51,532 nucleotides of DNA from Phycisphaerae bacterium (GTDB taxonomy: Bacteria > Planctomycetota > Phycisphaerae > Sedimentisphaerales > Anaerobacaceae): NCBI GenBank assembly GCA_017993835.1, contig JAGOLX010000043.1:1-51532 (forward strand), in the 5' to 3' direction. Positions 1 to 7,595 of this stretch are shown here, in pieces; position 1 is the stretch's first letter, and each line of letters begins with the position of its first letter. The notes under the pieces are model-generated. The model was not told the DNA's origin. It did no database searches and saw nothing but the letters and a program-made list of their open reading frames with translations. Made by a program: the position numbers and the translations under genes.

Positions 1-90
1 AAGAGCTACCCCTATGCAGACTGTCACCAGCCACCCGCTCGATTCCGGCGTCCTAACCACCGACAGAATCAGTACTTGGCAAAGGCAGGC
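1..90. other. left flank of the CRISPR array
   Basis: No repeat copy is visible in these 90 bases, although the 72-73 bp period would place one near base 18. Base 91 is therefore the first repeat. If crRNAs are read from the + strand, as the ATTGAAGC repeat end suggests, this is the inner part of the leader. It is not AT-rich and carries no clear promoter. The base touching the first repeat is C, which matters for the boundary drift described in the findings. Confidence 0.4.
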
Positions 91-3000
91 CTTTCCGCGT
101 TCAAACGAACGCGGCCCCATTGAAGCCACTCTACTCTACTCTACTCTAAGAAGGGGTATAGTACTTTCCGCGTTCAAACGAACGCGGCCCCATTGAAGCA
201 CAACAAGTGGCGGGCGAAGAAGCGGGGCAGTCTGGCTTTCCGCGTTCAAACGAACGCGGCCCCATTGAAGCTGCGGCTGACAGTCGGGATGCTCCGCTGG
301 AACCCTTCCTTTCCGCGTTCAAACGAACGCGGCCCCATTGAAGCACCTCCTGCTACTGCCCCGGCTCCGAGATCCAGCAGCCTTTCCGCGTTCAAACGAA
401 CGCGGCCCCATTGAAGCTATCTCATTGCCCCGACCACCTTTATCGCTTCACGCCTTTCCGCGTTCAAACGAACGCGGCCCCATTGAAGCGACCTTGCCGC
501 AGACGCGGCAGGTCCGCTCGCCCCGCCTTTCCGCGTTCAAACGAACGCGGCCCCATTGAAGCGCCGAGGGGGTCCAGATCATCAGGGACGCGATGGGCCT
601 TTCCGCGTTCAAACGAACGCGGCCCCATTGAAGCCCACCCAGATTGCCTGTGACAGATCCCACGGCACCCGCCTTTCCGCGTTCAAACGAACGCGGCCCC
701 ATTGAAGCAACTCAGTCGTCCCGCAGACCCTCGATCAACTTGGCCTTTCCGCGTTCAAACGAACGCGGCCCCATTGAAGCAGGTAGTAGAACGAGTCCGC
801 GTCGATGACGGTAATCCTTTCCGCGTTCAAACGAACGCGGCCCCATTGAAGCGCCAGCTCTCGCAAACCGTCTCGGCTCTCGTCGGTGACCTTTCCGCGT
901 TCAAACGAACGCGGCCCCATTGAAGCTTGAAGGATCGCGGGGCCAAGCACGACCAGGCATTCCTTTCCGCGTTCAAACGAACGCGGCCCCATTGAAGCGC
1001 ACTCTGCGCCCATCAGCAGGGCAACGAGGGTGACCCTTTCCGCGTTCAAACGAACGCGGCCCCATTGAAGCTCGGAGACGGAGAAGTAGGCCGAATAGTT
1101 CCACGGACCTTTCCGCGTTCAAACGAACGCGGCCCCATTGAAGCGCGTAGAGCCACACGCCGTATACGGCGGGAACTGGCTCCTTTCCGCGTTCAAACGA
1201 ACGCGGCCCCATTGAAGCGATACCGGGGCTACGCGCGACGACAACGCGAACAAACCTTTCCGCGTTCAAACGAACGCGGCCCCATTGAAGCTCCCCGCTG
1301 CCCTTCGTCCACCGGGCGACCAGGTATCCTTTCCGCGTTCAAACGAACGCGGCCCCATTGAAGCCCCTTCTTCACGGACCGGTCCAATACGCGGCCCGGC
1401 CCTTTCCGCGTTCAAACGAACGCGGCCCCATTGAAGCTTCGCGACGGCATCGTTCAGGCCGACGAACTTGATCCTTTCCGCGTTCAAACGAACGCGGCCC
1501 CATTGAAGCCATACCCGCACAAAGCGATCCTCATGCGGGGATCGTCCCTTTCCGCGTTCAAACGAACGCGGCCCCATTGAAGCACGTAGACGCCGCGAGA
1601 CACGTTGTCGATGGTGTTGCCTTTCCGCGTTCAAACGAACGCGGCCCCATTGAAGCGCCGCGAGATTCTGCTTTCGCAACTGGCGGTGCCATCCTTTCCG
1701 CGTTCAAACGAACGCGGCCCCATTGAAGCTTGAATCGCGGACACCCGCTGGCCCGCGGTCTCGGCCTTTCCGCGTTCAAACGAACGCGGCCCCATTGAAG
1801 CGTCGTACCACCACGACTGTTCGGCGCTGAAGGACAATCCCTTTCCGCGTTCAAACGAACGCGGCCCCATTGAAGCCAATCGCGTGGAGGCGGACCGCTA
1901 TGCTAGAGGAACCCTTTCCGCGTTCAAACGAACGCGGCCCCATTGAAGCACGATCGCGCTCTTGAGATTCCCGAACAGGTACGCCCCTTTCCGCGTTCAA
2001 ACGAACGCGGCCCCATTGAAGCACCGCTTTGGAAGCCGCCACGTCGGCCGATTCTACACCTTTCCGCGTTCAAACGAACGCGGCCCCATTGAAGCCCGGC
2101 ATCGTAGACGCCCGCCGCCTTCATCTTGGTCCTTTCCGCGTTCAAACGAACGCGGCCCCATTGAAGCTGCTTACTATACCCTTGAAAAAAGCCATAGTAG
2201 CATCCTTTCCGCGTTCAAACGAACGCGGCCCCATTGAAGCTAGCGACACGCTGCGGAGATATATCGCCGTCATAGAGCCTTTCCGCGTTCAAACGAACGC
2301 GGCCCCATTGAAGCTACATCGCCTTTTCGGCCGTCATCCCCGCCGGCCTGCCCTTTCCGCGTTCAAACGAACGCGGCCCCATTGAAGCTCAGGAAGCTCC
2401 CTACGGCGCGACACTGTCGATCCTCCTTTCCGCGTTCAAACGAACGCGGCCCCATTGAAGCGGTCTGGTACCCGCGGGGGTGCTGGCGATGTCATACTTT
2501 CCGCGTTCAAACGAACGCGGCCCCATTGAAGCTACGAACGCAAACAGGCCCGAACGTCCGATAACTGCTTTCCGCGTTCAAACGAACGCGGCCCCATTGA
2601 AGCAGGTCGATCAGGTAATCCCGATACGCGGCCTTCCGCTTTCCGCGTTCAAACGAACGCGGCCCCATTGAAGCCGCGCGAAAGCGAGAGGGCCGTGGCC
2701 GCCGAGGTCGTCTTTCCGCGTTCAAACGAACGCGGCCCCATTGAAGCCAATCGTCGCCCGCGGGTCGTGTAGTGGAATGGACTTTCCGCGTTCAAACGAA
2801 CGCGGCCCCATTGAAGCAGACCATGCAAAGGAGACGGCTTATGCCCGAAGAAACCCTTTCCGCGTTCAAACGAACGCGGCCCCATTGAAGCTGAACGTCC
2901 TGCTCCACGACTTCTCCGAAGCCCGTCTTTCCGCGTTCAAACGAACGCGGCCCCATTGAAGCCCTGAGAACGTGCAGCGTTCGACCCAGCAATTGCTCCT

Positions 3001-6000
3001 TTCCGCGTTCAAACGAACGCGGCCCCATTGAAGCACCAAACTGCTGCCGCTTCTGATTGTCGTGGCGGTGCCTTTCCGCGTTCAAACGAACGCGGCCCCA
3101 TTGAAGCTAGACCAGCGCGCCGCCGGAGCCCAGAGTCGTTGCCCTTTCCGCGTTCAAACGAACGCGGCCCCATTGAAGCAACACCCTGAACGATCCGTCC
3201 AGCCAACTGACGCTCAACTTTCCGCGTTCAAACGAACGCGGCCCCATTGAAGCTTTAACGACCTGTTCCTCATGCTCGGGGACGCCAACTTTCCGCGTTC
3301 AAACGAACGCGGCCCCATTGAAGCGAGCACGAGGCGAGCGGGACGGAGTCCGGGTCTCCGCTTTCCGCGTTCAAACGAACGCGGCCCCATTGAAGCTCGA
3401 ACAGCATCTTCCAGGCGTGGGGCTCAACGAGCTTTCCGCGTTCAAACGAACGCGGCCCCATTGAAGCGTGGAATACTTCGGGGGTTCCGACTCGTCCTCC
3501 GGGCTTTCCGCGTTCAAACGAACGCGGCCCCATTGAAGCCGGGCGGACGCAGACCTGTCGAGCGATTTTCCGCTGCTTTCCGCGTTCAAACGAACGCGGC
3601 CCCATTGAAGCACGGGCAACACCTATGGGACTCCGACCGAGACGGCCACTTTCCGCGTTCAAACGAACGCGGCCCCATTGAAGCTAAGCCACGGGCTCAT
3701 GGACCCACCGGGCACCCGACTTTCCGCGTTCAAACGAACGCGGCCCCATTGAAGCGGGCGATGTGGTGCGGATCTACATCTCCGACAGTGAGCTTTCCGC
3801 GTTCAAACGAACGCGGCCCCATTGAAGCTGGGGCGATCCGGAAGAACGCGAGTACGGTCTGTGGTCTTTCCGCGTTCAAACGAACGCGGCCCCATTGAAG
3901 CACCGACACCGGAGGCGTGGAATACGAGGTCTGGATCTTTCCGCGTTCAAACGAACGCGGCCCCATTGAAGCAACGATTCGCTCTAGTGTGGCGTTGACG
4001 TCTATCGTCCTTTCCGCGTTCAAACGAACGCGGCCCCATTGAAGCGTCTTCCGTGACCATGCCGAGCAGTTGAGCCACGTCAGCTTTCCGCGTTCAAACG
4101 AACGCGGCCCCATTGAAGCCATCAAGGTTCACGCCACCAATGATGACTTCTTCCCCCTTTCCGCGTTCAAACGAACGCGGCCCCATTGAAGCCAGGCGGG
4201 ATTCGACCCCTACAGACAGGCGATTTCCGCCTTTCCGCGTTCAAACGAACGCGGCCCCATTGAAGCTCCTTGCCCTTGTCCCGGTGCTCCAGGCCGAGCC
4301 GGCCTTTCCGCGTTCAAACGAACGCGGCCCCATTGAAGCAGTTTCTGTGTTCCCCAGACCCGAAGTCTCGGACACCTTTCCGCGTTCAAACGAACGCGGC
4401 CCCATTGAAGCGCGGCCCTCAAGAAGGCTTGCGGCGAGGATCCCGCACTTTCCGCGTTCAAACGAACGCGGCCCCATTGAAGCGCTCGGACTGGCGGAGA
4501 TCGACGCGCTCGGGGACGGCTTTCCGCGTTCAAACGAACGCGGCCCCATTGAAGCTACTCCCGGTATACACCATTGGTCAGGTTGGGTGATCCTTTCCGC
4601 GTTCAAACGAACGCGGCCCCATTGAAGCACGGGGAGATCTTCCTCGATGACCTCGGTGGCGGTGGCTTTCCGCGTTCAAACGAACGCGGCCCCATTGAAG
4701 CCGCCCCGAGACAAGGCCCCTGACATCCATCGTGCCCCTTTCCGCGTTCAAACGAACGCGGCCCCATTGAAGCATCGGCATGGTCTGGAGAAGATGAAGG
4801 CGTATCTTTCTTTCCGCGTTCAAACGAACGCGGCCCCATTGAAGCTTCGGGGGCGAACCCCGAAGCCGACGGCGGGCTCGACTTTCCGCGTTCAAACGAA
4901 CGCGGCCCCATTGAAGCGTCTTGCTCTTGTACGTCGATCTCGATCTGTACGTCTTTCCGCGTTCAAACGAACGCGGCCCCATTGAAGCGGAGCCTGCGTC
5001 ACCGCGACCAGTTCAACGCCTGCGTGCTTTCCGCGTTCAAACGAACGCGGCCCCATTGAAGCTCCACCCCCTTTCCCGAACCATTCACCCCCCCGCAACT
5101 TTCCGCGTTCAAACGAACGCGGCCCCATTGAAGCGGCAAATGCCGCTTGAGGTCATCCATCGTGTCCGGATGCTTTCCGCGTTCAAACGAACGCGGCCCC
5201 ATTGAAGCCGAAGACGAGTTGTGCTGTGCGCTATGGAAAGAGATGCTTTCCGCGTTCAAACGAACGCGGCCCCATTGAAGCTTCGTCGTGGCCCCCTGAA
5301 CAACGAGGTCCACAGAACTTTCCGCGTTCAAACGAACGCGGCCCCATTGAAGCACCGCCTGAGTGCCCAGCCAGACCGACCACTTGTCTTTCCGCGTTCA
5401 AACGAACGCGGCCCCATTGAAGCGCGGGCGTGCTGCTTATCCACCGCGGCGGAGTAGTCTTTCCGCGTTCAAACGAACGCGGCCCCATTGAAGCGGGTCC
5501 ACCCGCCAGACGACGCAGTCGTTCACATCTTTCCGCGTTCAAACGAACGCGGCCCCATTGAAGCTCGCCGATGAGAGCGGCCGACTTGCCCAGCCCGATC
5601 CTTTCCGCGTTCAAACGAACGCGGCCCCATTGAAGCTGGCGTTGGTCTTGTGTCTCCTGTGCAGCACGGTCTGCTTTCCGCGTTCAAACGAACGCGGCCC
5701 CATTGAAGCGCCGCCTTCTTCATCTTGCCCCGCACAAGCCGCAGCTCCTTTCCGCGTTCAAACGAACGCGGCCCCATTGAAGCAGGAGTAACTCTGCCGG
5801 GGCGTCTTCGTTCGTAGTCTTTCCGCGTTCAAACGAACGCGGCCCCATTGAAGATGGCTGCGGCACCGAGTATAGCCAGTGGTCTGCAGGGTCTTTCCGC
5901 GTTCAAACGAACGCGGCCCCATTGAAGACTCCGATCCCGACTCGTCGAACGACACACCACCGCCACTTTCCGCGTTCAAACGAACGCGGCCCCATTGAAG

Positions 6001-6217
6001 ATGCTCTCCTCCCGGCTGTCTGCCGCCGGGTCGCATACTTTCCGCGTTCAAACGAACGCGGCCCCATTGAAGGACAAGGGTGTTTTAGATGGCAACGCAA
6101 GCGGTTCTCCTTTCCGCGTTCAAACGAACGCGGCCCCATTGAAGTGCTACCTCGGGCTCCCGGACCGGATGGGGTTCGACGCTTTCCGCGTTCAAACGAA
6201 CGCGGCCCCATTGAAGC
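91..6217 (+). CRISPR. CRISPR array, 85 repeats and 84 spacers
   Basis: A 36-bp direct repeat starts CTTTCC and ends ATTGAAGC. It holds a perfect 8-bp stem (CCGCGTTC/GAACGCGG) closed by an AAAC loop. I indexed 85 copies, the first at 91 and the last at 6182-6217. Repeat-to-repeat distance is 70-75 bp, so spacers are 34-39 nt and I noticed no duplicates. No internal substitution was seen in any copy; only the edges vary. The 3' ATTGAAGC resembles the 8-nt crRNA tags (ATTGAAAC type) of several type I and III systems, so + strand transcription is favoured, but the subtype cannot be set. No cas gene lies in the 45 kb to the right. Long open frames across the array are artefacts of the stop-free repeat. 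Confidence 0.98.
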
Positions 6218-6811: not shown

Positions 6812-6929
6812 GGGCACTAGTTGAGGGGATAGGGACTCCGCGAGGAGTTCCGCGGCAGGGGATAGGTGGGGGCGTCGTGCTCCGCAGTCCAGTTCAGTTC
6901 GCAGGGTGTTGACCTCAGGAGGTTTGTGC

Positions 6930-7595
6930 ATGTTGTGCTCGAAGGCTGTTGTCTGGGCGATTTGCGTAGTCGGCGCGGTGATGGGCGTTGTGGCGCCGGT
7001 TCAGGCGGGTGATGCCTTCTTTGCGGGCGAACTGTCCGTCGGCAGCGGCCTGACCGCCACGAATGGGTGGATTGGCTCGGCCACGACGCTCGGTTGGGAG
7101 GTAAGCTATGTGGAGGCGTCCGGTCTGTGGCACTATGAGTACACGCTGGCAGTGGCCGACGATCCCGGGATCAGCCACCTCATCATCGAGACCTCCGCGA
7201 GCTTCACGGTCGACAACCTCCTCTCGCCGAGCGCCAGTTGGGAGATTGGGACCTACGATTCGTCCGTGGGCAAGAGCAATCCTTTCATGCCGGATTCTGC
7301 GTACGGGATCAAGTTCGCGGCCACCGGGACGGAGTACACGGTGAGATTCGACTCCGACCGCGTCCCGGTCTGGGGTGACTTCTACGCGAAGGGGGGGACT
7401 GACACTGTACTCTACAACACAGGGTTCACCGTGGGCGACACCGACCCGACGGCCGCCACCGTCGATGGCAGCGTGGCTTACCATGTCCTCGTGCCCGATA
7501 CCGTGTCTACGCACGCTCCGGTGCCCGGCGCGATGCTGCTCAGCGGGTTTGGGACCGGCGTGGTCACGTGGCTCCGCAGACGCCGGACGATCTGA
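6930..7595 (+). CDS. secreted PEP-CTERM-anchored protein
   Basis: A 221-residue exported protein of unknown function. ATG 6930 is chosen because an AGGAGG-type ribosome site sits about 7 bases before it, and because it starts a clean signal peptide (residues 1-26, cleavage after PVQA). The last 24 residues show the PEP-CTERM layout: a VPGAML motif, a hydrophobic stretch and a final RRRR cluster, the signal recognised by exosortase/archaeosortase enzymes. No exosortase is in the window. The body (27-197) is beta-rich with many Gly, Thr and Ser and no recognised catalytic motif. The nearest neighbours are CRISPR/IS debris, and it has its own promoter. Export and anchoring are inferred from the two terminal signals. 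Confidence 0.85.
   Translation: MLCSKAVVWAICVVGAVMGVVAPVQAGDAFFAGELSVGSGLTATNGWIGSATTLGWEVSYVEASGLWHYEYTLAVADDPGISHLIIETSASFTVDNLLSPSASWEIGTYDSSVGKSNPFMPDSAYGIKFAATGTEYTVRFDSDRVPVWGDFYAKGGTDTVLYNTGFTVGDTDPTAATVDGSVAYHVLVPDTVSTHAPVPGAMLLSGFGTGVVTWLRRRRTI

Follow-up and report, generated by a model that had tools for sequence, protein, structure and literature searches.

Probable natural one-base shifts of integration register recorded in a type I-G CRISPR array from a Phycisphaerae bacterium

In type I-E CRISPR-Cas systems the last base of the repeat is supplied by the prespacer, and in the type I-B system of Haloarcula hispanica spacer size reportedly depends on terminal sequence. A close experimental counterpart to the array described here comes from engineered type II-A arrays of Streptococcus thermophilus, in which the duplicated unit becomes 35 or 37 bp after changes of a single base, and the repeat can take in a base of the spacer; insertions inside the repeat left the leader-side cut unaffected, with the spacer-side cut following an internal ruler (PMC6895254). 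For type I-G, an enzyme that has been studied trims the non-PAM end of the prespacer without sequence preference, and this end is integrated on the leader side (PMC10504553). The present array, from a Phycisphaerae bacterium, depends on ordinary machinery and belongs to a known kind of system, and it documents natural one-base shifts in integrase register with unusual clarity. Both the 35- and 37-bp units and the capture of a spacer base into the repeat have their parallels in S. thermophilus. There, however, it is the spacer-side cut that moves, the leader-side one being fixed, whereas here the leader-side edge moves naturally for 30 acquisitions and then returns.

The window (the whole stretch of DNA analysed, 51,532 bp) is contig C27 of a 6.37-Mb genome assembled in 115 contigs. 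Its array contains 85 identical copies of the 35-bp core CTTTCCGCGTTCAAACGAACGCGGCCCCATTGAAG, the first starting at 91 and the last at 6182, and the forward strand of the window bears the ATTGAAGC end of the repeat. The 3' 90 bp of the leader (1–90, forward strand) and repeat 1 together make up window bases 1–126, which recur without a mismatch close to the end of contig C115. On that contig, csb1, csb2, cas3g, a Cas3-extension gene, a Cas4/Cas1 fusion gene and cas2 are followed by the leader. The signatures of Csb1/Cas7g, Csb2 and Cas3g (NCBIfam models TIGR02570, TIGR02165 and TIGR02621) all exceed their cut-offs, and the Cas4/Cas1 fusion and Cas2 score 708.8 bits against NF049935 and 45.9 bits against TIGR01573, respectively. 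By its cas gene set and leader, the array is type I-G, and it shares with type I-G adaptation by a Cas4/Cas1 fusion and Cas2 the gene set, the repeat family, the 36-bp unit and spacers of 34–40 bp. Because the cas genes and the shared leader lie together on C115, the leader is at the left of the array, repeat 1 is the newest and repeats 80–85 are the oldest. Beyond the array, an open reading frame at 6906–7595 ends in what, judged by eye, resembles a PEP-CTERM sorting signal.

The order of acquisition being fixed, the bases that flank the repeats can be read as a chronology. The leader ends in C at position 90, directly before repeat 1. In the newest era (repeats 1–3, 91–271, forward strand), the bases before repeats 2 and 3 are A and G. 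All 30 repeats of the next block (repeats 4–33, 308–2461, forward strand) are preceded by C, and the mean period is 73.0 bp, compared with 72.2 bp in the middle era. In repeats 34–85 only 14 of 52 preceding bases are C, and across all spacers outside the block 14 of 54 end in C, which is the chance level. The 36th base of the repeat is C in repeats 1–79, including the 46 repeats of the middle era (repeats 34–79, 2497–5783, forward strand); it then becomes A, A, A, G and T in repeats 80–84 (5819–6145, forward strand) and is C again in the terminal and oldest repeat 85 (6182–6217, forward strand). These remeasured junctions and coordinates agree with the initial annotation, which had reported the constant and near-random stretches of preceding base, mean periods of 73.0 and then 72.25 bp, the variable final bases of repeats 80–84 and a return to variable bases at repeats 2 and 3.

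The run of C is far from random. A runs test along the array gives z = -4.7, bearing out the suspicion of block structure that the annotation had raised, and the observed run of 30 compares with a maximum of 21 across 200,000 permutations. With a C frequency of 0.27 outside the block, the expectation for such a run is 0.27^30, or about 1e-17. Assembly error or chance, for which one might cite the fragmented assembly of 115 contigs and an array that begins near a contig end, can be given almost no weight given thirty independent junctions, a run not reached in any permutation and a contig overlap that is a clean 126-bp graph overlap.

The central question is whether the constant C was copied with the repeat or belongs to the spacers. 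Block spacers are 0.78 bp longer than the others (95% CI 0.34–1.23). When the C is counted as spacer, their mean is 37.0 bp against 36.2 bp in the middle era (p = 0.003), and the probability of a mean of at least 37.0 bp given the other eras is 9e-5; when the C is removed, the mean falls to 36.0 bp and the lengths match (p = 0.35). The corresponding log-likelihood ratio favours copying by +5.4 to +6.7 nats. A second line of evidence comes from a position profile of spacer 3' ends, built from 1,005 spacers of related arrays, in which base preferences near the 3' end are weak but significant. Scored against it, the block spacers favour a frame that excludes the C by +3.8 nats, where +4.5 ± 2.9 nats would be expected if the C were copied and -3.2 ± 3.3 if it were spacer-derived. 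Finally, the constant base is the same as the last base of the leader, C90. It is therefore well supported that the block C lies outside the spacers, the leader-side cut having fallen one base inside the leader so that C90 was copied each time, which upholds the one-base shift of leader-side cleavage proposed in the initial annotation. That the leader-side cut itself is the site of the shift is what we infer from these data, and the fixed leader-side cut of type II-A (PMC6895254) fits a cut that is anchored to the leader here.

The annotation had alternatively suggested that the edge base is derived from the spacer or linked to the PAM. For the C block, this would mean that non-PAM prespacer ends were trimmed or selected, for example by another nuclease, to finish in C, leaving spacers one base longer. 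Spacer 3' ends in the family are indeed mildly biased, the third-last position holding C in 40% (402/1005) against 31.5% (p = 1e-8), and mean spacer length varies among related arrays. Yet no related array with at least 10 spacers exceeds 62% of any one terminal base, the studied I-G enzyme trims independently of sequence (PMC10504553), the length and position-profile tests both favour a base outside the spacer, and the block base is the leader base; we consider a spacer origin of the block C improbable. The preference at the third base recalls the type I-B spacers of Haloarcula, and the likeness to H. hispanica extends to this I-G family only as a partial bias, not as a constant base of the kind seen in the 30/30 block.

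The length and position-profile tests agree, but the origin of the block C rests on statistics since no protospacer was found. Searches with the array as query found none in phages or plasmids. Exact-match scans of IMG/VR with merged two-spacer patterns covering spacers 1–15 and 28 also found none, although diverged protospacers would escape such scans, and relatives yielded only weak matches at the level of chance given the number of genomes searched.

Because C is not in excess outside the block, the shift operated during 30 acquisitions and at no other time, a pattern that a heritable change would produce and random slippage would not. Scattered 37-bp events in the middle era were considered, as spacers with a final C exceed the rest there by 0.9 bp (p = 0.02), but with no excess of C (14/52) this difference is probably due to chance. 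Beyond repeat 1, contigs C27 and C115 carry different spacers (window 1–126; L009 12270–12494), which indicates that the leader-proximal end of the array exists in two or more versions within the population. In the C115 version a G precedes the second repeat, and the extra C is consequently missing wherever the newest acquisitions can be scored, in three cases: before repeats 2 and 3 of the window and in the C115 variant.

Nearly all of 46 related arrays from several phyla (1,018 spacers) have a sharply bounded 36-bp unit, and none has an era that duplicates 37 bp including a leader base. The initial annotation had looked to contiguous blocks with the same one-base edge in related arrays for support, and no such block occurs among the 46. 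No run of a flanking base longer than five was found in these arrays except in L051, where it reflects a change of the first repeat base coupled to one inside the repeat; apparent blocks in the short arrays L117, L118, L125 and L146 are too small to count. Nor are leader bases echoed in relatives (137 observed against 142.5 expected of 557). The 30-repeat C block is thus unique among the 46 related arrays. Two of the family's arrays show edge variation of other kinds: L112 (6962–7991) has a 35-bp unit whose first repeat base is variable and spacer-derived, and the five newest repeats of L114 (reverse strand, 5037–5362) end in G and not C, a single last-base change copied onward.

The oldest era follows a different logic, on the spacer side. 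Since the 36th base of repeat 80 is A, the C of repeat 79 cannot be a copy of it and must have come with the spacer; the final C of repeat 79 is probably spacer-derived. By copying logic, repeats 79–84 represent six 35-bp duplications in which the 36th base came from the spacer. The succession of 37-, 36- and 35-bp eras set out in the initial annotation stands as the best-supported history, with the correction that the 35-bp era, there left as either the oldest or the newest, is the oldest and must take in repeat 79; likewise, a spacer-derived edge base, disfavoured for the C block, does fit repeats 79–84. During this era the spacer-side cut would have fallen one base short, leaving position 36 to be filled by the spacer until one that begins with C was captured, after which the duplication would have spanned 36 bp and carried the C onward within the repeat. 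The filler in these six repeats may be a base of the spacer proper or an extra PAM-side base. That the C of repeat 79 is also the family's usual C would be a one-in-four coincidence if it is spacer-derived, or else a sign of recombination. As in type I-E, the spacer supplies the final base of the repeat; unlike type I-E, this holds for six acquisitions only, with a variable base and no constant PAM base.

Read from the sequence, the oldest six acquisitions duplicated 35 bp, the next 46 duplicated 36 bp, the following 30 (spacers 32 to 3) 37 bp and the last two 36 bp again. The array would be filled by a Cas4/Cas1–Cas2 integrase, with everything between the leader-side and spacer-side cuts duplicated at each acquisition. 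A candidate cause for the 37-bp era lies in the leader, where a conserved box, CTCGA (38–42, forward strand), precedes the repeat by 53 bp. Across the repeat family, CTCG[C/A] or TTCGC occurs 51–53 bp upstream of the repeat at 38 of 51 array starts. The CTCG[C/A] box is present in leaders from L040 to L156, across several phyla, and may be a binding site for an adaptation factor. The box-to-repeat distance is 52 bp in two relatives of the same genus, G006 and G004, and 53 bp here. In G006, whose Cas4/1 is 86% identical, the homologous leader has one base fewer, the difference lying among the final nine or ten positions ahead of the repeat; G004 and the mode of the family hint at a gain in the present genome rather than a loss in G006. 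The cut position may be set partly by distance from the CTCG box, normally 51–52 bp upstream. An insertion of one base among the last nine of the leader would then push the repeat out to 53 bp from the box with the cut still made at 52 bp, giving a 37-bp unit, and a later heritable change would have returned the leader-side cut to the junction. The same final sequence would be expected if the C arose by mutation at the repeat edge and was not a native leader base. Two related arrays, L070 and L110, have a distance of 53 bp yet normal 36-bp units, so distance alone does not dictate a 37-bp unit, and because the present leader is still at 53 bp while the newest units are 36 bp, the reversion requires another cause.

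Reversion is where a mosaic origin of the array has its appeal: if the 30-spacer block was built up behind a different leader allele, or in a different array, whose unit was 37 bp, and recombination between repeats later joined it to the present leader, no second change of the cut would be needed. The two leader-proximal variants in the assembly indicate a mixed population, and in L051 two repeat positions change together, an effect that recombination could have. A search of the genome, however, revealed no second array of this repeat with a different leader, the core repeat is identical in 85 of 85 copies, and the block base matches that of the present leader; a mosaic is an unlikely but live alternative, a little less improbable than selection of spacers ending in C. 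A second adaptation module acting in trans was also considered and rejected, as the genome's only other Cas1 is encoded in a type II-C-like locus that has an array of its own, with normal edges. This second CRISPR system, on contig C34 (L159 5750–13527), encodes Cas9 (1160 aa), Cas1 and Cas2 beside 45 repeats (36 + 30 bp).

Taken as a whole, the best explanation, to which we assign a probability of roughly 0.75, is an ordinary type I-G array that underwent a one-base shift of the leader-side cut, with C90 copied at each acquisition and a leader insertion as the presumed cause. Somewhat doubtful, at less than even odds, is the broader proposition that spacing between leader box and repeat sets the register of the leader-side cut, such that a one-base indel beside the junction would switch unit length heritably and reversibly and the array would record each switch.

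Since arrays preserve the order of acquisition, a block of altered junctions dates natural changes in the position at which the integrase cuts. For type I-G, the array is a natural experiment on what sets the leader-side cut, the sequence of the junction or distance from an upstream leader element, and it shows that a 37-bp unit was tolerated across 30 acquisitions. It also carries a warning, as repeat-calling software would assign the leader-copied base to 30 spacers.
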